From the NCBI RefSeq assembly GCF_000263195.1, contig NC_018748.1:3472001-3536000 (forward strand): DNA of 64,000 nucleotides, read 5' to 3'. The notes beneath the pieces were generated by a model that was given only the letters and a program-made list of their open reading frames with translations, did no database searches and was not told the DNA's origin. The DNA is from Emticicia oligotrophica DSM 17448 (lineage in GTDB: Bacteria; Bacteroidota; Bacteroidia; Cytophagales; Spirosomataceae). The translations under genes and the position numbers were made by a program. Shown one piece after another: positions 38,665-49,442 of the stretch. Position 1 is the first letter of the stretch. The number at the start of each line of letters is the position of its first letter.

Positions 38665-40134
38665 ATGAGCTTAGTACAAAACCACTTCATTGGCTACTTT
38701 TTTCATGAAAAAAATGACCTTTGGCAAACGGTAATTTCTTTAAGAAGTAGTTTTTCTGAAGCTATTTATATTACTGATGAACACACCATTTCTGAAGCCA
38801 AAACCAATCTTAACGATATACAGATTGAGGTAATGTCTTCGGATGATATTGCTTTGCGTGAGCAAGTAGTGAGAGCCAAACCGGTTATTTCTTCATTACA
38901 AGATAAAATTAAAGAGTTTTTACCTGAGCAGCTTGTCATTTTTATTGAAATGACTTGGGCTGTACGAACGCCATCAGGAGATATTTATCTACGAGAATTT
39001 CATGAAGCATTTCAGGTGTTTCTAACGCAATTTCCTACAACTATTGTTTGTTTGTATAATGAGTCTATTTTGCTCGATGAGCAACTAATGTTGTCTTTAA
39101 ATTCACATCCTTATATATATGCGGGCAATGAATACATTGAAAATCCCTATTATTTACCGCCAAACATTCTGCAAAAAAATCAAATTAAACTACGCTTTAA
39201 TTATCGCTTAAATAAACTAATTCCCGAACGCAAAGCATTTTCAAATCAAATTGCCGAGGTATCGCAAGAAGATAAAAGTGACTATCCACTTCAAAAAACT
39301 TTTTCTTCGCCCATTGCTCAAACCAATGAAGGACGCTGGAAAATTAGGTGTTTGGGTGAATTGCGTATTCGTCGAGAAAATGGTGAGCTAATCGAGTGGA
39401 ATACTAAAGCGGGTTCTACTCGAAAACTAAAAACACTGTTTGCTTTTTTGCTCATTCGTGGCGACCGTGGGGCAAGTACCGAAGAATTAGCAGATTTACT
39501 TTGGCCAAATGCTGATAGTACCGACCAAGCCGTTAATCGACTTTATCATGCTATTCGATATTTGAGGCTCATTTTAGAAGGCGAAAAGGCCGAAAAACAA
39601 AAATCTGCTTTTATTACTCATCAAGGTTCGCATTATTACCTGCGTTTGCCCTACGATAGTTGGATTGATTTACCAATGTTTCAGGAATTATGTTTTAAAG
39701 GCAACCAGCATTTAAAAGAAAATAACCTCGAACAAGTGAAAATTTGTTATGAGTCGGCCGAGCGTCTTTATACAGGCGATTTATTCAATGATATTCCCCA
39801 AAAATATATTGATAATAACGAAAACGACTGGCTGTGGAGTAAGCGTTTTTGGTATCGTGAAATGTATCATAAATTATTGTATAGCCTTGCCAATATTAAT
39901 CGCCAATTGGGTAACCTTGCTTTATCTATCAAATATTGTGATAAAGTTTTGGCCGAAGACCCAAGTCTTGAGGCTGCCCACCGAGAAAAACTCCTTTCCT
40001 TAGCTGCTTCCCAACGCTTCGATGCTTTGCATCGCCAATATCGAATTTACTGCGAATCACTCAAAAAATTCAATCTCGGACAACCTTCTGAAGATATGCG
40101 AAAGCTTTATTTGAATCTTTCAAGAAAAAATTAA
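38665..40134 (+). CDS. MEDS-SARP fusion: small-hydrocarbon sensor joined to an AfsR/SARP-type activator
   Basis: 489 residues, three parts. Residues about 1-185 look like the MEDS domain, first defined in the dichloromethane regulator DcmR: HFIGYFFHEKNDLWQTV, EAIYITDEHTI, IVCLYNESILLDEQL and the closing HPYIYAGNEYIENPYYLPPN. Residues about 212-310 are a winged helix of the OmpR-like SARP type (KTLFAFLLIRGDRGASTEEL, LADLLWPNADSTDQAVNRLY). Residues about 318-489 are the bacterial transcriptional activation domain, TPR-like helices typical of AfsR. MEDS domains are proposed to sense simple hydrocarbon derivatives. It ends 83 bases before the P450 gene, whose promoter has SARP-like direct repeats, so it is the likely activator. 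Confidence 0.82.
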   Translation: MSLVQNHFIGYFFHEKNDLWQTVISLRSSFSEAIYITDEHTISEAKTNLNDIQIEVMSSDDIALREQVVRAKPVISSLQDKIKEFLPEQLVIFIEMTWAVRTPSGDIYLREFHEAFQVFLTQFPTTIVCLYNESILLDEQLMLSLNSHPYIYAGNEYIENPYYLPPNILQKNQIKLRFNYRLNKLIPERKAFSNQIAEVSQEDKSDYPLQKTFSSPIAQTNEGRWKIRCLGELRIRRENGELIEWNTKAGSTRKLKTLFAFLLIRGDRGASTEELADLLWPNADSTDQAVNRLYHAIRYLRLILEGEKAEKQKSAFITHQGSHYYLRLPYDSWIDLPMFQELCFKGNQHLKENNLEQVKICYESAERLYTGDLFNDIPQKYIDNNENDWLWSKRFWYREMYHKLLYSLANINRQLGNLALSIKYCDKVLAEDPSLEAAHREKLLSLAASQRFDALHRQYRIYCESLKKFNLGQPSEDMRKLYLNLSRKN

Positions 40135-40149
40135 AATATTACCAATAAA

Positions 40150-40185
40150 ACCAAAGAAAAACCAAAGATTAGGTTTTTAAGTTTG
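40150..40185 (+). promoter_or_regulatory. P450 operon promoter with SARP-like direct repeats
   Basis: Exact -7 element TAAGTTTG at 40178-40185, 32 bases before the P450 ATG. No TTG is present at -33. Instead two identical heptamers ACCAAAG lie at 40150-40156 and 40161-40167, 11 bp apart start to start, the second ending 10 bases before the -7 element. SARP activators of actinobacteria bind heptamer direct repeats with 11-bp period placed about 8 bp upstream of the -10. The layout therefore suggests activator-dependent expression by the upstream MEDS-SARP protein. Confidence 0.6.
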
Positions 40186-40217
40186 TTACGGAATCAATTA
40201 AAAAACAAAATAAGTAC

Positions 40218-41459
40218 ATGAACACTGCGATTGGATGTCCGTATCATAAAGTGAGCGAATCGTTTAAACCTTTCGACCTCACCAATCCTTTTCCGTTCTA
40301 CAAACAGGCACGAGAAGAAGAACCTATTTTTTTTAGCGAAGAACTTGGTTATTATGTTGTAACCCGTTTTCAAGATATTAAAGAAATCTTTGGTAATTGG
40401 AAAGTATTTACTTCTGAAAATGCTCAGTCGCCTTTCAAACCTATCGCTCCAAAAGCTAAAGCATTAATGGAAGAGGGAGGCCTTATCGGACTATCGGGCC
40501 TATCGGGTAGAATTCCACCTGACCATACTCGTATCCGTCGCATTGTGAGCATGGCATTTAATGTGGGACGTTTCCGCAAACTTGAGCCAAAAATCAGAGA
40601 GTTGGCAATTAATATGATTGAAGATTTTGCGGCAAAAGGTAAAACCAACATTATTAAAGACTTAGCTTATGATTTACCTGCTTATGTCATTTTTATGTTA
40701 CTGGGAGTTCCAAACGAGGAAGTACAACAAGTAAAAAGTTGGGCCGAAAGCCGTTTATTGCTCACTTGGGGCGATTTATCGGAAGATGACCAATTGATGC
40801 ACGCTCAAAATATGGTGAAATATTGGAATTATTGCCAAGGATTAGTAGCCAAACGTAAAGAAAACCCAACTGATGACCTCCCAGGTGATTTAGTTCGCTA
40901 TCAAGCTGAGGGTTATGAGATTTCTGACCGTGAGATTGCAGCTATGTGTTATAGTGCTTTATTTGCTGGCCACGAAACAACAACTTCTTTGTTGGGAAAT
41001 GGTATCAGAGAATTATTGATTCACCGTAAAAGTTGGGAATCTCTTTGCACAAATCATGAAATGATTCCTAATGCAGTTGAAGAAGTACTACGTTATAGCC
41101 CTTCTATTGTCTCGTGGAGACGCCGCTCAACCGAAGAAGCAACGGTGGGTGGAATTACGATTCCAGCAGGTTCAAATATCCTTCTGGTGATGGGTTCGGG
41201 GAATAGAGATGAGGCTCAATTTGAGAATGGAGAAGACTTTGATATCGAAAGAAAGAATGCCAATCAGCACCTTTCAATGGGAAGTGGCATTCATTTCTGC
41301 TTAGGAGCACCACTGGCTAAATTAGAAGCTAAAGTTGTTTTAGAAGAACTTACTAAACGCTTACCGTCGCTTCGCCTAACACCTGAACAAACTTTTGCTT
41401 TTGCACAAAATACCTCTTTTAGAGCTCCAGTAGCTCTCGAAGTAGAATGGGATGTATAA
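40218..41459 (+). CDS. Cytochrome P450 monooxygenase (class I, three-component type)
   Basis: 413 residues, soluble bacterial P450 of normal length. The oxygen-activating I-helix motif AGHETT (about 250-255), the ExxR of EEVLRYSPS and the haem loop MGSGIHFCLG with cysteine ligand 361 are intact. A conserved PPDHTRIRR precedes the C-helix. The operon's own ferredoxin and reductase resemble rhodocoxin and its reductase, the partners of the thiocarbamate-inducible P450 ThcB, which this protein also resembles in its N-terminal region. It should hydroxylate or dealkylate a small hydrophobic substrate in the cytosol. It is first in the operon, with 54 bases to the next gene. Confidence 0.93.
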   Translation: MNTAIGCPYHKVSESFKPFDLTNPFPFYKQAREEEPIFFSEELGYYVVTRFQDIKEIFGNWKVFTSENAQSPFKPIAPKAKALMEEGGLIGLSGLSGRIPPDHTRIRRIVSMAFNVGRFRKLEPKIRELAINMIEDFAAKGKTNIIKDLAYDLPAYVIFMLLGVPNEEVQQVKSWAESRLLLTWGDLSEDDQLMHAQNMVKYWNYCQGLVAKRKENPTDDLPGDLVRYQAEGYEISDREIAAMCYSALFAGHETTTSLLGNGIRELLIHRKSWESLCTNHEMIPNAVEEVLRYSPSIVSWRRRSTEEATVGGITIPAGSNILLVMGSGNRDEAQFENGEDFDIERKNANQHLSMGSGIHFCLGAPLAKLEAKVVLEELTKRLPSLRLTPEQTFAFAQNTSFRAPVALEVEWDV

Positions 41460-41513
41460 ACCCTAAAATATACAATCAAACCTAATAAACGTAAACGTCC
41501 TTCGTCATTCAAC

Positions 41514-42584
41514 ATGAAATATACCTTGTTTTTTAATCAAGCTCAACCTTCAGACTACCAATATTTAGGTGGAAAAGGAGCAAGTTTAGCGAGTATGAGT
41601 GTAGCAAATATGCCTGTACCAGTTGGTTTTTGCGTAACTACACACGCTTATGAGCAGTTTTTAGATGCTTCAGGTTTAAAGCATGAAATTATGCAAATGG
41701 TTGAGTCGATAGATTTTAACCAAGTAGATGAGCTTGACCGAGTATCTGCTACCATCAGAGAGATGTTCATGAAAATGGCAATTCCAGCCGAAATTCAAGA
41801 ATCTATCAAAAATACATACGCAGAACTATGTATTTTATGTAGTTATGAAAATGATTTACCCGTGGCGGTTCGTTCGAGTGCTACCGCAGAGGATTTACCC
41901 GATGCAAGTTTTGCTGGGCAACAAGATACTTACTTGTGGATTGTTGGTGAAAATGAAGTGCTTGAACATGTAAGAAGATGTTGGGCTAGTTTATTTACTT
42001 CAAGAGCAATTAATTATCGAAAAGACCAAAAAATTGCCGAAGATGAAGTATTAATGTGCGTAGTTATCCAAAAAATGGTGAATGCTCGTACGGCAGGGGT
42101 AGCTATGACGCTTAATCCGACCAATGGCGACCGCTCGAAAATTGTGATTGATTCTGCTTGGGGACTTGGAGAGGCTGTAGTTTCGGGCGAGGTAACACCT
42201 GATAATTTTATTGTAGATAAAATTATGCTTCAAGTGATAAAAAGCAATATTCAAAATAAGCACATTGAGCATGTTCCTGATAGAGAAAATCGCAAAGTTT
42301 TAACTCGAGAAATTACAGATGAACGAGCAACACAGGCGAGTATCAATGAGACAGAAATCAAAGAGCTTTGCCGAATTGCTAAGTTAATTGAAAAACACTA
42401 TGGTTGCCCGCAAGATATTGAATGGGCGATTGATGCCGACCTCCCTGTTGGACATAATTTTACATTACTTCAAAGTCGCCCCGAAACGGTTTGGTCACAA
42501 AAGAAGGTCGAAAACACTGGAATTAAGATGGGGATGGAGGGTATATTGAATACTTTAATGAATCCTATTAGTGCAAAAAAATAA
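41514..42584 (+). CDS. ATP-grasp subunit of a split PEP-synthase-like dikinase (PPDK_N)
   Basis: 356 residues, corresponding only to the N-terminal nucleotide-binding part of PEP synthase. Motifs: GGKGASLASM (19-28), AVRSSATAEDLPDASFAGQQ (118-137), IQKMVNARTAGVAMTLNP, the SAWGLGEAVVSGEVTPDNF segment, QDIEWAID and LLQSRPETVW near the end. All ATP-contact residues of the family appear kept. The protein should transfer the beta-phosphate of ATP to the catalytic histidine of the next gene's product, giving AMP and phosphate. Sizes and division match subunit B (40 kDa) of phenylphosphate synthase from Thauera. No pyruvate-binding barrel is encoded, so pyruvate is not the substrate. Confidence 0.88.
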   Translation: MKYTLFFNQAQPSDYQYLGGKGASLASMSVANMPVPVGFCVTTHAYEQFLDASGLKHEIMQMVESIDFNQVDELDRVSATIREMFMKMAIPAEIQESIKNTYAELCILCSYENDLPVAVRSSATAEDLPDASFAGQQDTYLWIVGENEVLEHVRRCWASLFTSRAINYRKDQKIAEDEVLMCVVIQKMVNARTAGVAMTLNPTNGDRSKIVIDSAWGLGEAVVSGEVTPDNFIVDKIMLQVIKSNIQNKHIEHVPDRENRKVLTREITDERATQASINETEIKELCRIAKLIEKHYGCPQDIEWAIDADLPVGHNFTLLQSRPETVWSQKKVENTGIKMGMEGILNTLMNPISAKK

Positions 42585-42609
42585 GTACACCAAAACCTAA
42601 TATTAAACA

Positions 42610-44421
42610 ATGTCAAAAAAGTTCATCAGCCCCTACGACCACAAAGCTCCTGCTGGAGCCGAAGGTTGGAAAGAATTGTATCCCTATTACATGGTTTTTC
42701 AAGATAACTTGAAAGAAACCGAAGAAAATAAGTTCTTTTTTTGCGACTCACAACACTGGCCAAATGTTTTCAAACCATTTGATGCAATTACCGTTGAGTT
42801 TGCGGTAAAATGTTTAGGTCAATATAATACTCGTCAATGGTTGATTCCACCAGCAAATGGTATTGACTTTAAGATTCATAACGGTTATTGCTACATGAGT
42901 CCAGTAGGGGTTGCTCCCGAACTTATCGGCGACCGTGTGCCACAATTTTTAGAAAGAGCAGGTTTTTATTTTCAAAATTGGAATACGCTCCTTGATAATT
43001 GGCACGTAAAAGTAAAGGGTGTGATTGATGAAATGGAAGCTGTGAAATTTGAACCACTTCCAGAAGTGATTGATATTGAATGGGTTAAGAACGGTGTAGG
43101 CCTCGACCCAACTTACCATTTGATTCAGAATTATGATAAAATGATAGACCTTTGCTATAAAACTTGGATGTATCACTTCGAGTTCTTAAACTTAGGTTAT
43201 GCGGCATACCTTGATTTCTTTGGTTTTTGTAAAGAAACTTTCCCTGGTATTCCTGACCTTTCAATTGCTAAGATGGTGCAAGGAGTAGAAGTTGACCTTT
43301 TCAGACCAGATGAAGAGTTAAGAAAGTTATCGAAATTAGCTCTTGAATTAAAACTGACAGATATTATTTCAAGCAATAGTCTTGATGCTGCTTTAGTGGC
43401 ATTGGGTGCATCAGCCGAAGGAAAACAATGGATTGAAGCGTGGGAAAATGCCAAATATCCTTGGTTTAACTTTACTACTGGAAATGGTTTTTATTCTACA
43501 GATAAATATTGGATTGAAAATCTTGATATTCCATTTGGGTATATTCAAGACTACGTAAGCCGCTTAGTAAATGGTGAAAATATCGACCGTCCAACTGAAG
43601 AAATCGCAGCCGAAAGAGATAGAATTACAGAAGAATACCGTGACTCGATTCCGAGTGCCGAAGCACAAGCGGCTTTCGATGGCAAATTAGGTTTAGCTCG
43701 TGTGGTATTCCCGTACGTTGAAAACCATAATTTCTATATCGAACACTGGGCGATGTGTGTTTTCTGGAGAAAAATGCGTGAATTGAGTAGTGTATTCGTA
43801 CAAACTGGTTTCTACGATGACATCTACGATATGTTCTATTTCCGTAGAGAAGAAATTCACCAATTATTATTCGATTATGGTCGTGGTTGGGCGATGGGTG
43901 TGCCTTCAATTGGCCCAGACTACTTGCCAAACGAAATTGCTCGCCGTAAGAAAATTGTTGATGCTCTCTCGACCGCTGCTCCAAAACCAGCTTTCAATGA
44001 GCCACCAGCAGTTGTTACCGAGCCATTCACAATCATGCTTTGGGGTATTACAACCGATAGCGTTCAGAGTTGGCTCAATAGCGGTGAAACTTCTAATCAG
44101 CTGAAAGGAATGGCTGCTTCGGCTGGAAAAGTAGAGGGTATCGCAAGAGTAATCAATAGTCCAGAAGAGTTAGGGCAGTTACAATTAGGCGAAATCTTAG
44201 TTACTCGCGTAACAGCTCCAAGTTGGGCTCCAGTTTTTGGTAAAATCAAGGCTACTGTAACCGATATTGGTGGAATGATGTCGCACGCAGCTATCGTTTG
44301 TCGTGAGTATGGCTTACCTGCCGTTACGGGTACAGGCTCAGCAAGTACGACTATCAAAACAGGTGATTTGATTGAAGTAAACGGTTCAACTGGTGAAGTT
44401 GTTATCTTAAAAGCAGCATAA
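42610..44421 (+). CDS. Substrate-binding and phosphohistidine subunit of the split dikinase
   Basis: 603 residues. The last 110 residues are the PEP-utiliser mobile (swivel) domain with the phospho-carrier motif TDIGGMMSHAAIVCREYGLP; the catalytic histidine is residue 559, and GLPAVTG follows as in PEP synthase. Residues 1 to about 480 form a large, aromatic-rich domain without a recognised family name, matching in position and size the acceptor domain of rifampin phosphotransferase and of the phenylphosphate synthase alpha subunit (70 kDa). It most likely binds the alcohol or phenol to be phosphorylated. The gene starts 25 bases after the ATP-grasp subunit and is followed by a 13-bp hairpin. 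Confidence 0.85.
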   Translation: MSKKFISPYDHKAPAGAEGWKELYPYYMVFQDNLKETEENKFFFCDSQHWPNVFKPFDAITVEFAVKCLGQYNTRQWLIPPANGIDFKIHNGYCYMSPVGVAPELIGDRVPQFLERAGFYFQNWNTLLDNWHVKVKGVIDEMEAVKFEPLPEVIDIEWVKNGVGLDPTYHLIQNYDKMIDLCYKTWMYHFEFLNLGYAAYLDFFGFCKETFPGIPDLSIAKMVQGVEVDLFRPDEELRKLSKLALELKLTDIISSNSLDAALVALGASAEGKQWIEAWENAKYPWFNFTTGNGFYSTDKYWIENLDIPFGYIQDYVSRLVNGENIDRPTEEIAAERDRITEEYRDSIPSAEAQAAFDGKLGLARVVFPYVENHNFYIEHWAMCVFWRKMRELSSVFVQTGFYDDIYDMFYFRREEIHQLLFDYGRGWAMGVPSIGPDYLPNEIARRKKIVDALSTAAPKPAFNEPPAVVTEPFTIMLWGITTDSVQSWLNSGETSNQLKGMAASAGKVEGIARVINSPEELGQLQLGEILVTRVTAPSWAPVFGKIKATVTDIGGMMSHAAIVCREYGLPAVTGTGSASTTIKTGDLIEVNGSTGEVVILKAA

Positions 44422-44432
44422 AGTTTTATTAA

Positions 44433-44465
44433 CGAGTTGCGGACTCCAGAAAAGTCCGCAACTCG
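44433..44465. repeat. REP-like hairpin inside the P450 operon
   Basis: Perfect 13-bp stem (44433-44445 with 44453-44465, arm CGAGTTGCGGACT), 7-nt loop, in the 59-base gap before the first HD gene. There is no T-run after it, so it is not a classical terminator; it may lower downstream expression or protect the 3' end of the upstream message. The sequence resembles a Bacteroidota REP family. Confidence 0.7.
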
Positions 44466-44480
44466 AAACCTTCAAAAACC

Positions 44481-45068
44481 ATGAATAAACACCTTCAAGT
44501 TTATAAGGCTGCCGAAAAATACATGCGTGTTCGAAAAAACGATGTACATATACCACTTTCGTACAAATATGCCTTGAAACTCATAGAAAAATATCCAAAT
44601 GCCGATGCCGATTTAGCGGCTATTTCAATAATCTTACACGACATTGGTTGGTATTCGATTGACGAAGACGATATTTTCAAAAAAGGTTTTCAATCTGAAA
44701 ACTTCATGCAAAGTGATGTCAGATACTTGCACGAGTCAGAAGGAGTAAGGTTATCGACTGAACTACTAAAAGATTTAGGGTATTCTGAAGAGTTTATTCA
44801 GAAAGTAGCTGCAATAATTGATGGCCATGATACAAGAAATTTCTCCAAATCATTAGAAGATGAAATTGTGAGAGATGCCGATAAACTTTGGCGATTTACC
44901 GTAACGGGTGTAAGTGTTGCATGCGATTGGTTCAAACAAACGCCATCGAGATACTGTAATCGCCTCGAAACCGATATTATTCCGCAATTACACTTACCCG
45001 AATCGATTGAAATGGCTAAGGCAGATTTAGCCGAAACTCGCAAAGAACTTTTGTGCGATGTAATCTAA
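44481..45068 (+). CDS. HD-domain hydrolase, first of two paralogues
   Basis: 195 residues filled by one HD domain. Likely metal ligands follow the H...HD...H...HD...D pattern: H23, H53-D54 (ILHDIGW), H84, H116-D117 (DGHDT) and D132/D134 (RDADKLWR). HD enzymes of this size are phosphohydrolases or lyase-like enzymes on small molecules. It is clearly related to the protein at 46487-47077 (shared LHDxGW, DGHDT and DADKLWR), and both lie in the same operon around the aldehyde dehydrogenase. The setting suggests it processes the phosphorylated product of the dikinase, but this is inference. It ends 31 bases before the dehydrogenase start. Confidence 0.85.
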   Translation: MNKHLQVYKAAEKYMRVRKNDVHIPLSYKYALKLIEKYPNADADLAAISIILHDIGWYSIDEDDIFKKGFQSENFMQSDVRYLHESEGVRLSTELLKDLGYSEEFIQKVAAIIDGHDTRNFSKSLEDEIVRDADKLWRFTVTGVSVACDWFKQTPSRYCNRLETDIIPQLHLPESIEMAKADLAETRKELLCDVI

Positions 45069-45099
45069 TGACGATAAAGTTTATTAATTGAAAATTCAA

Positions 45100-46485
45100 A
45101 TGCAAGTCATAGAAGTCATAAATCCTTGCAATGGTGAGGTGGTGGGAGTATGCCCAAGAGCGACCGAAAACGATGCTGCCAAAAGCATTGAAGCCGCTCA
45201 TGAAGCATTCAAGAAATGGAAAAAAGTTTCGGTAGCGGAGCGTGTAAAACTACAGCATAAAGCTGCCGAAGGCATGCGAAAACACGCCGAAGAGTTAGCC
45301 CAAATCATTGCTAATGAATTGGGAAGACCAATCGCTGGCTGCTTGACAGAAATAAGTAGAAGTGCAGATTTGCTTGATTTTTACGCCGAAGAAGGCCTTC
45401 GATTAAAAGGAGAAATTCCACTGCATAATATTGAAGGCGAAAAAGCACTGATTATCAGAGAACCAATTGGGGTGGTAGTTTCAATTACCCCATTTAATTA
45501 TCCGATAACCTTGCTTACCATGAAATTGGGAGCTGCTTTGGTTGCTGGCTGCACGGTTGTGGCAAAACCTTCGGAAGATACCCCACTTTCTACGGTTCGT
45601 TTGGGGCAAATTTTCGAAGAAGTGGGTTATCCTGAAAATGTTTTTAAAGTCATAACAGGTTATGGTCACGAAATTGGGCATACGCTAATCGAACACCCTT
45701 TAGTGTCAAAAATTGCTTTCACGGGTGGAACAAATACAGGTAAGCGAATTGGTCAAGCAGCGGCCGCACATAATAAGCGAATCACTTTAGAGTTAGGTGG
45801 GCAATCGCCAGCCGTTGTTTGTGCAGATGCCAATATTGAAGTAGCTGCGGCGGCTATTGTTCGACACGGCTTTGCTAATAGCGGACAATTCTGCTATCGT
45901 GTCAACCGAGTTTATGTGCATGCGTCTATTTATGAATTATTTGTTGATAAAATGGTTGAGTTAGCTCAGAAACTTACGCTCGGAAGTCCATTTTCGGGTT
46001 GCGATATGGGGCCAATTATCAACCAAAAAATCTATCAGAATAGCGAAGTACAAGTAGCCGATGCTCTCGAAAAAGGGGCAAGCATTCGCACGGGTGGAAA
46101 AAGGCTTACGGGCGAATTGTATGATAAAGGCTGGTTCTTTCCACCAACAATCGTCGCTGATGCAAACCATTCGATGAAAGTAATGACCGAAGAAACCTTC
46201 GGACCCGTAATAGGAGTAATGCCATTTAATTCCAACGATGAAGCGATTACTTTAGCCAATGATTCAGAATATGGTTTGGCTGCTTATGTTTTCTCTGAAA
46301 ACTTGGCTATTGCTTTACGTATGGCAGAATCATTTGAAGCAGGTTCGGTTTGGATAAATAACATTCACCGAAGCTACCACGATGTGCCATTTGGAGGTGT
46401 CAAACAGAGTGGAATGGGAAGAGAAAAAGGGAGGTACGGTATTGAAGCCTACACCGAATTGAAGACAATTTATCTGAATTATTGA
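45100..46485 (+). CDS. NAD(P)+-dependent aldehyde dehydrogenase
   Basis: 461 residues from the ATG at 45100; a TTG twelve bases upstream is the alternative. ALDH superfamily member: cofactor motif TPFNYP, TGGTNTGKRIG, the general base glutamate in LELGGQSPAVV (residue 231) and catalytic cysteine in NSGQFCYRV (265), then EETFGPVIGV. The class is like succinate-semialdehyde or lactaldehyde dehydrogenases. It probably oxidises an aldehyde intermediate of the pathway to the acid. It lies between the two HD genes, with one base between its stop and the next ATG. Confidence 0.93.
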   Translation: MQVIEVINPCNGEVVGVCPRATENDAAKSIEAAHEAFKKWKKVSVAERVKLQHKAAEGMRKHAEELAQIIANELGRPIAGCLTEISRSADLLDFYAEEGLRLKGEIPLHNIEGEKALIIREPIGVVVSITPFNYPITLLTMKLGAALVAGCTVVAKPSEDTPLSTVRLGQIFEEVGYPENVFKVITGYGHEIGHTLIEHPLVSKIAFTGGTNTGKRIGQAAAAHNKRITLELGGQSPAVVCADANIEVAAAAIVRHGFANSGQFCYRVNRVYVHASIYELFVDKMVELAQKLTLGSPFSGCDMGPIINQKIYQNSEVQVADALEKGASIRTGGKRLTGELYDKGWFFPPTIVADANHSMKVMTEETFGPVIGVMPFNSNDEAITLANDSEYGLAAYVFSENLAIALRMAESFEAGSVWINNIHRSYHDVPFGGVKQSGMGREKGRYGIEAYTELKTIYLNY

Positions 46486-46486
46486 T

Positions 46487-47077
46487 ATGAGAAAGCAAGA
46501 CGAAGCAATTTGGGAAGTAGCTAAAACCCATCTAAATGTGCGGAATAATGATGAACACACCTTGTTTTCGTATTTGTTGGCTCAAAAAATAGCAGAAAAT
46601 TATCCTGAATCTGATATTGAAATTATTTTGCCAGCCATTTTATTACACGATACTGGTTGGTCTAAAATTCCGAAAGATAAACTTTTCAATGCTTTTGGTC
46701 CTAATAATAAATATCCAGAATTAACCCGTCAACATGAATTTGAAAGTGTTGCAATTGCACGTCAAGTTTTACCCGAATTAGGTTTTTCTAATCATCAAAT
46801 AGAAGAAATAACGTCTCTCATTGATGGGCATGATACAACAAAAAATGCTCGCTCGCTCAATGATGCTATTCATAAAGATGCCGATAAATTATGGCGATAT
46901 ACGCCTCATGGAAATCGGATAATAGGAGAGTGGTTTGAGATTGAACAGGCTGAGGTTTTAGAGATTCTCGAAAACTTTGTTTTACCTACATTCTTAACCG
47001 ATTTTGGACGAAAACAGGCAATTGTCTTTTTAGAAACTGCCAAATTAAACCTTAATCTGAAAAAGTACTTATGTTGA
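46487..47077 (+). CDS. HD-domain hydrolase, second paralogue
   Basis: 196 residues, same fold and motif order as the protein at 44481-45068: H24, H54-D55 (LLHDTGW), H83, H115-D116 (DGHDT), D131/D133 (KDADKLWRY). Identity between the two looks moderate, so they have probably diverged in substrate after duplication, or form a heteromer. It starts one base after the aldehyde dehydrogenase stop and overlaps the SDR gene by 7 bases, which means tight translational coupling within the operon. Confidence 0.85.
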   Translation: MRKQDEAIWEVAKTHLNVRNNDEHTLFSYLLAQKIAENYPESDIEIILPAILLHDTGWSKIPKDKLFNAFGPNNKYPELTRQHEFESVAIARQVLPELGFSNHQIEEITSLIDGHDTTKNARSLNDAIHKDADKLWRYTPHGNRIIGEWFEIEQAEVLEILENFVLPTFLTDFGRKQAIVFLETAKLNLNLKKYLC

Positions 47078-47817
47078 ATTTGAAAGATAAAGTAGTAATC
47101 ATCACTGGTGCTGCGGGAGGACTCGGCAAAGCATTTGCTTTGGCATTTGCCAATGAAGGAGCAAAAGTAGCTGTTTGTGATAAAAACATAAAAGGTGCTA
47201 CCGAAACCGCCCAAGAAATCGGTAAAGATGCCATCGCTATCGAAGTAGATGTAGCAAATGAGGCATCTACCAAAGCAATGGCACATGTAGTGGCCGATAA
47301 GTTTGAGAAAATAGATGTATTAGTCAATAATGCGGCTATTTATGCGACCATTCAACGCAAACCCTTTTACGAAATTTCAGAAGAAGAGTGGGATTTGGTG
47401 TTGAACGTAAACCTTAAAGGTGTTTGGATGGTATCGAAAGCGGTTTTCCCATTCATGAAAGCTGCTAATGCTGGTAAAATCATCAATATTTCGTCGGCAA
47501 CGGTTATGAGTGGCTCGCCACAGTGGTCACATTATGTGGCATCGAAAGGAGGAGTCATTGGTTTTACTCGCTCGATGGCCAAAGAAGTTGGCGATTTTAA
47601 TATCAATGTAAATGCCATTGCTCCAGGTTTTACGCTAACCGATGCCAGTTTATCGCTTATCGAAAATGCCCAAAAATATGGTGTTGACCGAGGAGCAATC
47701 AAACGCTCATCTTCGGCCGAGGATATTGTAGGAACTGCCCTTTATTTAGCTTCATCTGCTTCTGATTTTGTCACAGGACAAACAATCGTAGTAGATGGTG
47801 GAAAACAATTTATCTAA
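47071..47817 (+). CDS. Short-chain dehydrogenase/reductase (SDR)
   Basis: 248 residues, classical SDR. Cofactor motif TGAAGGLG at 12-19 with D/K after the second strand suggesting NAD(H), the NNAA structural motif near 89, catalytic serine in SGSPQWS, and Y155-x3-K159 (HYVASKGG). Length is standard. It likely interconverts a secondary alcohol and ketone in the pathway, or a 3-hydroxyacyl intermediate. The start overlaps the second HD gene by 7 bases; 64 bases, with a small hairpin, separate it from the ferredoxin gene. Confidence 0.92.
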   Translation: MLNLKDKVVIITGAAGGLGKAFALAFANEGAKVAVCDKNIKGATETAQEIGKDAIAIEVDVANEASTKAMAHVVADKFEKIDVLVNNAAIYATIQRKPFYEISEEEWDLVLNVNLKGVWMVSKAVFPFMKAANAGKIINISSATVMSGSPQWSHYVASKGGVIGFTRSMAKEVGDFNINVNAIAPGFTLTDASLSLIENAQKYGVDRGAIKRSSSAEDIVGTALYLASSASDFVTGQTIVVDGGKQFI

Positions 47818-47853
47818 CACTCTCTTTCCTCCGAAGGGAGCATCAATCAAAAT

Positions 47854-47872
47854 TCTCCATCGGAGGTGGAGA
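47854..47872. repeat. Small hairpin with purine-rich GGAGG ahead of the ferredoxin gene
   Basis: TCTCCA and TGGAGA pair around TCGGAGG. The GGAGG and GTGGAG runs lie 10-16 bases before the ferredoxin ATG and could act as a Shine-Dalgarno site, which is unusual because Bacteroidota seldom use one. A weaker G-T paired hairpin lies just upstream (47824-47841). Together they resemble a REP pair. Confidence 0.4.
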
Positions 47873-47881
47873 CCTTGAAAT

Positions 47882-48202
47882 ATGCCAGTAATAACTTATA
47901 TCGAAAATAACGGAAATCAACGCCAAGTTGAATTGCCAATGGGAGCTTCAATTATGGAAGGAGCTATACAAAATGATGTCAAAGGAATTGTCGCCGAATG
48001 CGGTGGTTCGTGTATGTGTGCCACTTGCCACGTGTACGTTGATGAACAATTCATTGATTTACTTCCAGAAATGCAAGAAGAGGAAGATGAAATGCTCGAA
48101 GCTGCCAATGCTCCACGTCAGGCAAATAGTCGTTTAGGTTGTCAAGTAAGAGTAACAAAAGCCATGGATGGTTTAGTTGTGCGTATTCCAGAAAGACAAT
48201 AA
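47882..48202 (+). CDS. Vertebrate/putidaredoxin-type [2Fe-2S] ferredoxin (rhodocoxin-like)
   Basis: 106 residues. The cluster cysteines are at 40, 46, 49 and 87 (C-x5-C-x2-C and SRLGC), as in adrenodoxin, putidaredoxin and rhodocoxin. The region IVAECGG then CATCHVYVDE and EEEDEMLEAA closely follows rhodocoxin. An extra cysteine at 44 within the cluster loop is unusual. It should pass single electrons from the reductase to the P450. The reductase gene starts one base after its stop. Confidence 0.95.
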   Translation: MPVITYIENNGNQRQVELPMGASIMEGAIQNDVKGIVAECGGSCMCATCHVYVDEQFIDLLPEMQEEEDEMLEAANAPRQANSRLGCQVRVTKAMDGLVVRIPERQ

Positions 48203-48203
48203 G

Positions 48204-49400
48204 ATGAAAGTTGTAATCATAGGTGCAGGACACGCAGGCGTACAAGCTGCTTCTTCTTTGCGAGAAGAAGGCTTTGCTGGTGAAATCGTTTTGGTTGCTG
48301 AAGAAAGATATTTACCTTACCAAAAGCCACCTTTATCGAAAGGGTATTTGCAAGGCAAACAGTCTGCTGAAGCTATTTTGTTTCGTTCAGAAAATTATTA
48401 CTCAGCCAATCAAATTGAACTTCGCTTAGGAACTAAAATTAGTCAGATTTTGCCAAATGAGCAGGAAATCATTACTTCCGAAGGTGAAAAAATTGAATAC
48501 ACACATTTAATTTTAGCCACAGGAGCCAGTAACCGTCAATTGAAAATCACTGGAGCCGATACGGCCGAAATATTCTATTTACGTACGTTGGCTGATGCTC
48601 GCAAGATTGAGGAAAAGTTACATAATGCCAAGAATGTTGCCATTATTGGCGGAGGATTTATTGGCCTTGAATTGGCCGCACTCGCCCAAGAAAAAGGCAA
48701 AAACGTATCAGTAATTGAAGCCCAAAGCCGACTGATGGAAAGAGTGTTACCTGCTGTTATTTCTGATGTTTTTAAAGATACGCATCTACAAAATGGCGTA
48801 GATATTTTGCTCAATACATTTACAAGTTCAATCGAGGGGAATACGATAAAAACTCAATGCGGTAAAAGCATTAAAGCAGACTTGATTTTGGCTGGAATTG
48901 GTGTTATTCCCGAAACTAAATTGGCTGAGCAAGCAGGTATCAACTGCGAAAATGGCATTGTAGTCAATGAATTTCAGCAGACTTCTATCGTTAATATTTA
49001 TGCCATTGGCGATTGTGCCAATCATTATAATGTTTTTGCTAAACGAAACATACGCCTCGAATCTGTACAAAATGCCGTTGACCAAGCTAAAGTTGCAGCC
49101 AATCATATTATAGGGAAAGCAGAAGCCTATCAAGCTGTACCGTGGTTCTGGACAAACCAATATCATTTAAAATTACAAATGGCTGGTATTTCGACTGGTT
49201 TTGACGAATATATGGTACGTGGAGATATTTCGAGTGGTAAATTCTCGGTTTATTATTTCAAAGATACGAAACTTATTGCGGTCGATTCACTCAATAAAGC
49301 GGCCGAGCATCTCAATGCACGAAAACTATTAAGTTTGGGTGTTAGCCCAAGCAAAGAAGAAATTTTAGATGTAAGTTTTAATCTAAATTCTTTGGTTTAA
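48204..49400 (+). CDS. NAD(P)H-ferredoxin reductase of the putidaredoxin reductase type
   Basis: 398 residues from the ATG at 48204, two bases after the ferredoxin stop. FAD motif VIIGAGHAGVQAASSL at the N-terminus, NAD motif AIIGGGFIGLELAALA (near 145), the LATGAS turn and the FAD-binding YAIGDCANH (near 270). The protein has the length of rhodocoxin/putidaredoxin reductases. It oxidises NAD(P)H and reduces the ferredoxin, completing the class I electron chain for the P450. It is the last gene of the operon, followed by a terminator. Confidence 0.95.
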   Translation: MKVVIIGAGHAGVQAASSLREEGFAGEIVLVAEERYLPYQKPPLSKGYLQGKQSAEAILFRSENYYSANQIELRLGTKISQILPNEQEIITSEGEKIEYTHLILATGASNRQLKITGADTAEIFYLRTLADARKIEEKLHNAKNVAIIGGGFIGLELAALAQEKGKNVSVIEAQSRLMERVLPAVISDVFKDTHLQNGVDILLNTFTSSIEGNTIKTQCGKSIKADLILAGIGVIPETKLAEQAGINCENGIVVNEFQQTSIVNIYAIGDCANHYNVFAKRNIRLESVQNAVDQAKVAANHIIGKAEAYQAVPWFWTNQYHLKLQMAGISTGFDEYMVRGDISSGKFSVYYFKDTKLIAVDSLNKAAEHLNARKLLSLGVSPSKEEILDVSFNLNSLV

Positions 49401-49406
49401 GTAAAT

Positions 49407-49442
49407 AACGAACTGTAAGTCTTATTGACTTACGTTCGTTTT
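49407..49442 (+). terminator. Rho-independent terminator of the P450 operon
   Basis: Long stem (49407-49421 with 49427-49440, one bulged base) and 5-nt loop, followed by TTAATTT. It begins 7 bases after the ferredoxin reductase stop, so deoC is not simply the last gene of this operon. Confidence 0.75.

Follow-up and report, generated by a model that had tools for sequence, protein, structure and literature searches.

The stretch of DNA analysed here (the window) comprises 64,000 nucleotides of Emticicia oligotrophica DSM 17448 (NC_018748.1, positions 3,472,001 to 3,536,000). At positions 40218–49400 of its forward strand lie nine co-directional genes, separated by −7 to +64 bases according to the coordinates of their open reading frames (ORFs, Table 1). 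They encode a cytochrome P450, a dedicated ferredoxin and a ferredoxin reductase (both inside the operon as judged by Pfam), two kinase subunits, two HD-domain proteins (HD1 and HD2), an aldehyde dehydrogenase (ALDH) and a short-chain dehydrogenase/reductase (SDR). Sequence comparison indicates that this is very probably the Bacteroidota version of the cre operon, serving the degradation of p-cresol or a closely related p-alkylphenol. The pathway is already known, and the novelty lies in its presence in a group distant from Corynebacterium. The observations behind this reading are the gene set, the homology of the P450 to CreJ, the placement of the kinase in a Cre-type clade, synteny, and the presence of pobA-pca genes.

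An earlier note on this DNA had described one catabolic operon of same-direction genes with short gaps or overlaps, holding a class I P450 together with the ferredoxin and reductase that serve it and a split kinase of the phosphoenolpyruvate (PEP) synthase fold without a pyruvate domain. ORFs and domains were as described: PF00067, PF00111 and PF07992 with PF14759 are all present, and the kinase consists of a PF01326 protein and a separate PF00391 protein. The note counted eight genes, and the ORF list gives nine. It also placed a terminator at the end of the operon; a hairpin was found there, but the scanned stretch held 14 terminator-like sites against 9.5 expected, so that this hairpin is weak evidence alone. 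Promoter-like sites in the same stretch were at the level of shuffled sequence (32 versus 33.6 expected). The GC content, in 4-kb blocks, was 0.39–0.41 across positions 40001–48000 and 0.32–0.37 in the remaining blocks. For the reductase, the domain search was made with a query translated from position 48207.

Table 1. Features of the operon and its upstream regulator (window coordinates). Names and positions of the cre type follow the parts of PMC7764795 and PMC9549646 that were available.
Feature	Position	Strand	Basis
MEDS-BTAD transcriptional regulator, candidate operon regulator	38665..40134	+	Pfam; homologue upstream in related loci
CreJ-type cytochrome P450, proposed side-chain oxidation of phosphorylated phenol	40218..41459	+	PF00067; identity to 5gwe; Foldseek
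CreI-type ATP-binding kinase subunit (PPDK_N), 356 aa	41514..42584	+	PF01326 (392.5 bits); invariant residues
CreH-type kinase subunit with putative swivelling phospho-histidine (His559), 603 aa	42610..44421	+	PF00391; PRK08296.1-2
HD1, putative CreD-type phosphohydrolase	44481..45068	+	PF01966; creD position of orthologue
CreC-type aldehyde dehydrogenase	45088..46485	+	PF00171 (547 bits); creC position in actinobacterial loci
HD2, putative second HD phosphohydrolase, separate clade	46487..47077	+	HD tree; AlphaFold2 model
CreG-type SDR alcohol dehydrogenase	47071..47817	+	PF13561/PF00106; YxxxK at Tyr155; creG position in actinobacterial loci
CreF-type [2Fe-2S] ferredoxin	47882..48202	+	PF00111; C40-x5-C46-x2-C49...C87
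CreE-type FAD-dependent ferredoxin reductase	48204..49400	+	PF07992 and PF14759 (Reductase_C); CreE naming of PMC9549646
Terminator-like hairpin	49414..49434	+	terminator scan

The best PDB sequence matches of the P450 were 5gwe and 5xjn/7ccf (464 bits), with the next match at 281 bits, and its identity to CreJ (5gwe) was 50.1% over 399 aa. An AlphaFold2 model of the protein (39 sequences, mean pLDDT 88.3) had the same structures, 5gwe/5xjn, “cytochrome P450 CREJ”, as top Foldseek matches, with TM scores of 0.90–0.91. One of the CreJ entries matched is a complex with (4-ethylphenyl) dihydrogen phosphate. In a P450 tree of 76 rows, CreJ grouped with seven actinobacterial and two Rhodococcus plasmid rows (support 98). 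The heme ligand of the Emticicia protein is Cys361 in the alignment. A publication citing 5GWE contained, in the part available, docking of other ligands only.

Related loci were collected from a species-genome collection by a pattern scan, a search suited to close relatives, that took the 603 aa protein as query, and the best 80 of 357 relatives formed the set used here (L numbers). Homologues (tblastn, E ≤ 1e-5) were counted in the 53 of the 80 loci whose match has over 5 kb of sequence in front of it and 7.5 kb behind it. Among these full-flank loci, the ATP-binding subunit and the SDR had a homologue in 53/53, ALDH in 52/53, the P450 in 51/53, the ferredoxin in 46/53 and the reductase in 39/53; at least one HD protein was present in 51/53 and two in 45/53. 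The grouping of these genes is far beyond chance. Conserved co-occurrence of the split dikinase with P450 and HD genes, which the earlier note had set as a check, was found in 51 of the 53 loci for each partner. The whole set with two HD genes was present in all nine Bacteroidota loci, and the whole set in 16/16 Actinomycetota loci, 10 of which had two HD genes. For the 28 Pseudomonadota loci the figures were 26 for the P450 and 14 for the reductase; the other 14 (L028, L031, L066 and L083, for instance) had no reductase homologue, and their electron donor may be a shared or a different one.

Gene order, including the upstream regulator, was kept in most alphaproteobacterial and in both Chloroflexota loci, one of which (L042) has a HAD hydrolase gene inserted between regulator and P450. 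Actinobacterial loci, except L063, follow the order P450-kinase-kinase-(HD2)-SDR-ferredoxin-ferredoxin reductase-HD1-ALDH. Two loci, of Cecembia (L021:15219-16403) and Nitritalea (L023, near 15199), have an extra, distant P450 (25–27% identity) between SDR and ferredoxin, which in L021 was confirmed by Pfam P450.

The available part of PMC7764795 lists the Corynebacterium glutamicum genes cg0637–cg0645 as creC to creJ. In that list creC (cg0637) encodes a benzaldehyde dehydrogenase, creD a phosphohydrolase, creG a 4-hydroxybenzyl alcohol dehydrogenase, creH and creI the subunits of 4-methylbenzyl phosphate synthase, and creE, creF and creJ (cg0645) subunits of the P450 system; CreE is the ferredoxin reductase and CreF the ferredoxin according to the accessible text of PMC9549646. 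Eight of the nine operon genes have counterparts in this list. Six loci (L074, L081 and L087–L090) have the order P450-PPDKN-His-SDR-ferredoxin-ferredoxin reductase-HD-ALDH, which is exactly creJ-I-H-G-F-E-D-C of the listed genes. The HD, SDR and ALDH families, recognised in the operon by Pfam, are placed as creD, creG and creC in actinobacterial loci, and it is the orthologue of HD1 that stands at the creD position in the C. glutamicum-like ones. The earlier note knew of no characterised pathway with this set and took it for a candidate undescribed one; that reading is wrong, given these eight counterparts and a P450 that best matches CreJ.

The operon thus has in common with C. glutamicum cre the CreJ P450 (50% identical), ferredoxin, reductase, both kinase subunits, one phosphohydrolase, the alcohol dehydrogenase and the aldehyde dehydrogenase. 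It differs in gene order, in its second HD protein, in its distant ALDH, in its Bacteroidota host, and in its upstream regulator, of MEDS-BTAD type here, whereas an IclR-type gene takes that place in 19 of 20 actinobacterial loci.

The 603 aa kinase subunit had a single Pfam match, the PEP-utilizers mobile domain PF00391 at residues 527–595. Against the NCBIfam model PRK08296.1-2, described merely as “hypothetical protein”, it scored 1003 bits (cut-off 650), and C. glutamicum was the only one of 14 control genomes to exceed this cut-off. His559 was kept in 82 of 83 aligned rows, the remaining row having a gap, and K21, R120, Q320 and R322 at the ATP site of the PPDK_N subunit were invariant (83/83). 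We take these residues to be important, as in PEP synthase. In a kinase tree of 86 rows, covering 79 of the 80 loci, a branch of length 1.3 (support 100) sets 82 Cre-type rows apart from L095, L097, L100 and L101; the long branches of these four leave their order relative to one another unsure. L095, on plasmid pAZKH of Azoarcus sp. KH32C, is phenylphosphate synthase, with ppcABDG and a CBS gene in its annotation; L097 and L100 are Hpe-like, with a biotin carboxylase, a HAD hydrolase and a CoA ligase, and L101 is a kinase locus without assignment.

The accessible portion of PMC9618137 describes CreHI, HpeHI and phenylphosphate synthase as kinases that share homology and fall into distinct clades. 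The same source gives acetovanillone and 4-hydroxyacetophenone as substrates of HpeHI, and masses of 71.2 kDa for HpeH and 40.6 kDa for HpeI, which correspond to lengths of roughly 600 and 360 aa. Rifampicin phosphotransferase (Rph) was considered as an identity for the pair and rejected: the PPDK_N subunit scored 284 bits to Rph and the C-terminal 105 residues of its 603 aa partner 105 bits, but PRK08296.1-2 matched that partner over its whole length at the score given above.

The reactions proposed for the operon are those of published C. glutamicum work, and we infer that they hold in E. oligotrophica, together with the exact substrate and the roles of HD2 and of the MEDS-BTAD regulator. 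In the CreI/CreH-type pair, ATP would phosphorylate His559 of the 603 aa subunit, and the phospho-histidine would swing over and phosphorylate the phenol hydroxyl. The CreJ-type P450, receiving electrons via ferredoxin and reductase, would then recognise the aryl phosphate and oxidise the para methyl or alkyl group to the alcohol and further. HD1, perhaps with the help of HD2, would take the phosphate off, and SDR and ALDH would convert 4-hydroxybenzyl alcohol to the aldehyde and then to 4-hydroxybenzoate, which the chromosomal pobA-pca genes would channel through protocatechuate into the beta-ketoadipate pathway. The acid end product that the earlier note had predicted from the ALDH fits this cre-type route. 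For family models the operon is no more than “hypothetical protein, P450, HD domain”; this reading gives it a firm and testable function. The C. glutamicum pathway is also present in other Actinomycetota, in Chloroflexota, in Alphaproteobacteria and in Bacteroidota; p-cresol derived from toluene, lignin or tyrosine may be its substrate there.

Genes for the fate of 4-hydroxybenzoate accompany the operon in relatives. In the Maribacter metagenome-assembled genome (MAG) L017, pcaH, pcaG, pcaB, pcaDC and pobA begin about 10 bases 3' of the reductase. In the fetched flanks, pcaH was found in at least 17 of the 80 loci (among them at least 8 of the 17 Bacteroidota loci) and pobA in at least 12 of 80, counts that are lower bounds because many flanks are short. 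E. oligotrophica itself encodes a route from 4-hydroxybenzoate to central metabolism (pobA, pcaHGB-DC, CoA-transferase, thiolase), at G000:C5:1501821-1509720, in the order thiolase, CoA-transferase, pobA, pcaDC, pcaB, pcaG, pcaH. Alpha subunits of toluene-4-monooxygenase type were present in the flanks of 8/80 loci, all alphaproteobacterial, and two Rhodococcus plasmids, from R. oxybenzonivorans and R. ruber, also carry genes annotated as this type next to the operon. Enzymes of this type hydroxylate at the para position (an attribute taken from annotation), and such neighbours suggest a route from toluene to p-cresol and on to 4-hydroxybenzoate. In Flavobacterium segetis a PF13557 (Phenol_MetA_deg) gene lies within the operon (L016:11905-12873), possibly for uptake.

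These neighbours bear on the natural substrate, which with the same Cre-type chemistry could be another phenol, such as 4-ethylphenol, creosol, a terpenoid phenol or a longer p-alkylphenol. In favour of this, the ligand in the CreJ crystal is 4-ethylphenyl phosphate, the P450 is only 50% identical to CreJ, and the superfamily kinase HpeHI accepts two phenols, as stated in the accessible portion of PMC9618137. We nevertheless hold this to be rather unlikely, as the pca/pobA neighbours indicate a 4-hydroxybenzoate product and the toluene-4-monooxygenase-type neighbours a p-cresol substrate, both indications coming from relatives and not from the Emticicia genome.

Gene content alone leaves the order of steps unfixed, and the earlier note had the P450 act first to make an alcohol, which the kinase would phosphorylate and the HD, SDR and ALDH enzymes process as an ester. 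Such an order is very improbable in view of the published C. glutamicum cresol route, which starts by phosphorylating the hydroxyl group (PMC7764795, available part), of the binding of an aryl phosphate by CreJ, which was crystallised with an alkylphenyl phosphate, and of the action of HpeHI and phenylphosphate synthase on phenols as a first step (PMC9618137, available part). A pathway of phenylphosphate-synthase or Hpe type, in which the phosphorylated phenol is carboxylated, shares the kinase superfamily (the 603 aa protein is 46% identical to both L095 and L097) but deserves hardly any credence, since by Pfam the ten proteins of 38665–49400 include no CBS subunit, ppc carboxylase, biotin carboxylase or HAD phosphatase, and the operon kinase falls in a separate clade. 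The phenylphosphate synthase/carboxylase locus L095 resembles the operon in having two kinase subunits of the same families and a phenol substrate, whereas a CBS-domain gene and the ppcABDG carboxylase genes adjoin its kinase. The Hpe pathway (hpeHICBADEF, which L097 and L100 resemble) likewise combines a kinase pair with a phosphatase, putting phosphate on and off, but has a biotin-dependent carboxylase in place of the P450 and a HAD phosphatase in place of the HD protein.

Several observations weigh against the assignment to a cre operon. Direct sequence comparison with C. glutamicum was made for CreJ alone, and the matches of CreC to CreI come from protein family, synteny and the names in publications. 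The ALDH is 32–37% identical to the ALDH at the creC position in Actinomycetota except L063, and 53–63% identical to alphaproteobacterial ones; the ALDH of L063 is 56% identical to that of the operon. For HD2, the creC-J list of PMC7764795 offers no equivalent. In the P450, Met354 stands seven residues before the heme cysteine, where 70 of 75 P450 rows have Phe. The pobA-pca genes of E. oligotrophica are about 2 Mb away from the operon. Two of these genes score low: pobA, at 492.7 bits, is below the TIGR02360 cut-off of 538.7 and was named by its 72% identity to L017, and pcaG is below the PF00775 cut-off and was named by 66% identity to L017. Finally, a toluene/phenol hydroxylase was not found in the genome, in a search whose control itself gave no match anywhere. 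As to Met354, it is common to L011, L012 and L018.

The two HD proteins of the operon are 36% identical. Their clades were split in a tree of 141 rows (support 98), with 62 rows in the HD2 clade, and six putative metal ligands (H, HD, H, H, D) were invariant in all 141. HD labels were given by best match; this put the second HD proteins of L042, L054 and L063, despite their HD2 position, into the HD1 count. The HD2 clade is conserved across phyla, and none of the six C. glutamicum-like actinobacterial loci has a member of it. In a PDB sequence search, HD1 had no match and HD2 two, with E values of 0.45–0.48. The AlphaFold2 model of HD2 (pLDDT 97.1) had no Foldseek match at E ≤ 0.001; its nearest solved folds were HD hydrolases, with 2pq7 first (E 1.2e-3) and Bacillus subtilis YpgQ at TM 0.62–0.68. 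The idea that these might be PhnZ/MIOX-like oxygenases was set aside on these hydrolase neighbours of the HD2 model, a weak argument at such E values and one that concerns HD2 alone.

In L067 (Bradyrhizobium sp. dw_411) and L082 (Caenimonas sedimenti) the kinase pair occurs with an SDR, and neither P450 nor HD gene was found there. A Rieske/VanA_C oxygenase and a HAD hydrolase adjoin the kinase pair instead (L067:8866-14412, L082:7152-15953). The nearest solved relative of the L067 Rieske oxygenase is dicamba O-demethylase (184 bits). An ALDH homologue (33%) was found in L082 and none in L067. The Rieske and HAD enzymes of these loci may act on p-tolyl phosphate. That the same kinase is accompanied here by an oxygenase and a phosphatase with folds unlike those of P450 and HD supports a logic of tagging, oxidising and untagging.

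Tentatively, phenol side-chain oxidation in four phyla could rest on a modular phosphate-tag strategy built around the CreHI-type kinase, in which the oxygenase (P450 or VanA-type Rieske) and the phosphatase (HD1, HD1 plus HD2, or HAD) are exchangeable. For most lineages covered, E. oligotrophica included, two long-diverged HD phosphatases would each serve another oxidation state of the tagged intermediate, and the phosphate would leave only after oxidation; as a whole, we regard this proposal as somewhat less likely than not to be right. No report of the cre pathway in Bacteroidota, of HD2 or of the Rieske/HAD variant was found in a literature search, made on partly available texts and without most subscription journals and hence a weak sign of absence. 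HD2 and the Rieske/HAD variant are the parts most worth testing.

The regulator upstream of the operon matched MEDS at 41.1 bits (cut-off 29.8) and BTAD at 41.0 (cut-off 22.1). The earlier note had taken the MEDS domain as a pointer to a small hydrocarbon derivative. Regulators from seven related loci were above the BTAD cut-off in 7/7 cases and above that of MEDS in 1/7. A homologue lies upstream in 7/9 Bacteroidota, 25/28 Pseudomonadota and 0/16 Actinomycetota full-flank loci, and also in both Chloroflexota loci. Its position upstream in most loci of Bacteroidota and Pseudomonadota and in both of Chloroflexota makes it a candidate cresol sensor.

Among 200 genomes of the family, 15 had a kinase above the model cut-off, including E. 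oligotrophica and G097, where the gene is split by a contig end; in G065 the kinase is in pieces, each below the cut-off. In a draw from the phylum, 2/395 genomes had the kinase, E. oligotrophica included. Within the genus (11 genomes), P450 and kinase were both present in three and both absent in eight. This patchy distribution (15/200 in the family, 3/11 in the genus) makes the operon an accessory trait. The GC difference fits such a trait; the Bacteroidota rows of the kinase tree nonetheless make up one whole side of a branch (support 99). The nearest named locus, in the Emticicia MAG L011, has a kinase 99% and a P450 100% identical to those of the operon. Two further loci, L049 and L051, lie at the two ends of PAPN01000001.1 and are overlapping parts of one operon with identical kinase sequence; these identical overlapping ends suggest that PAPN01000001.1 is a circular replicon of about 160 kb.

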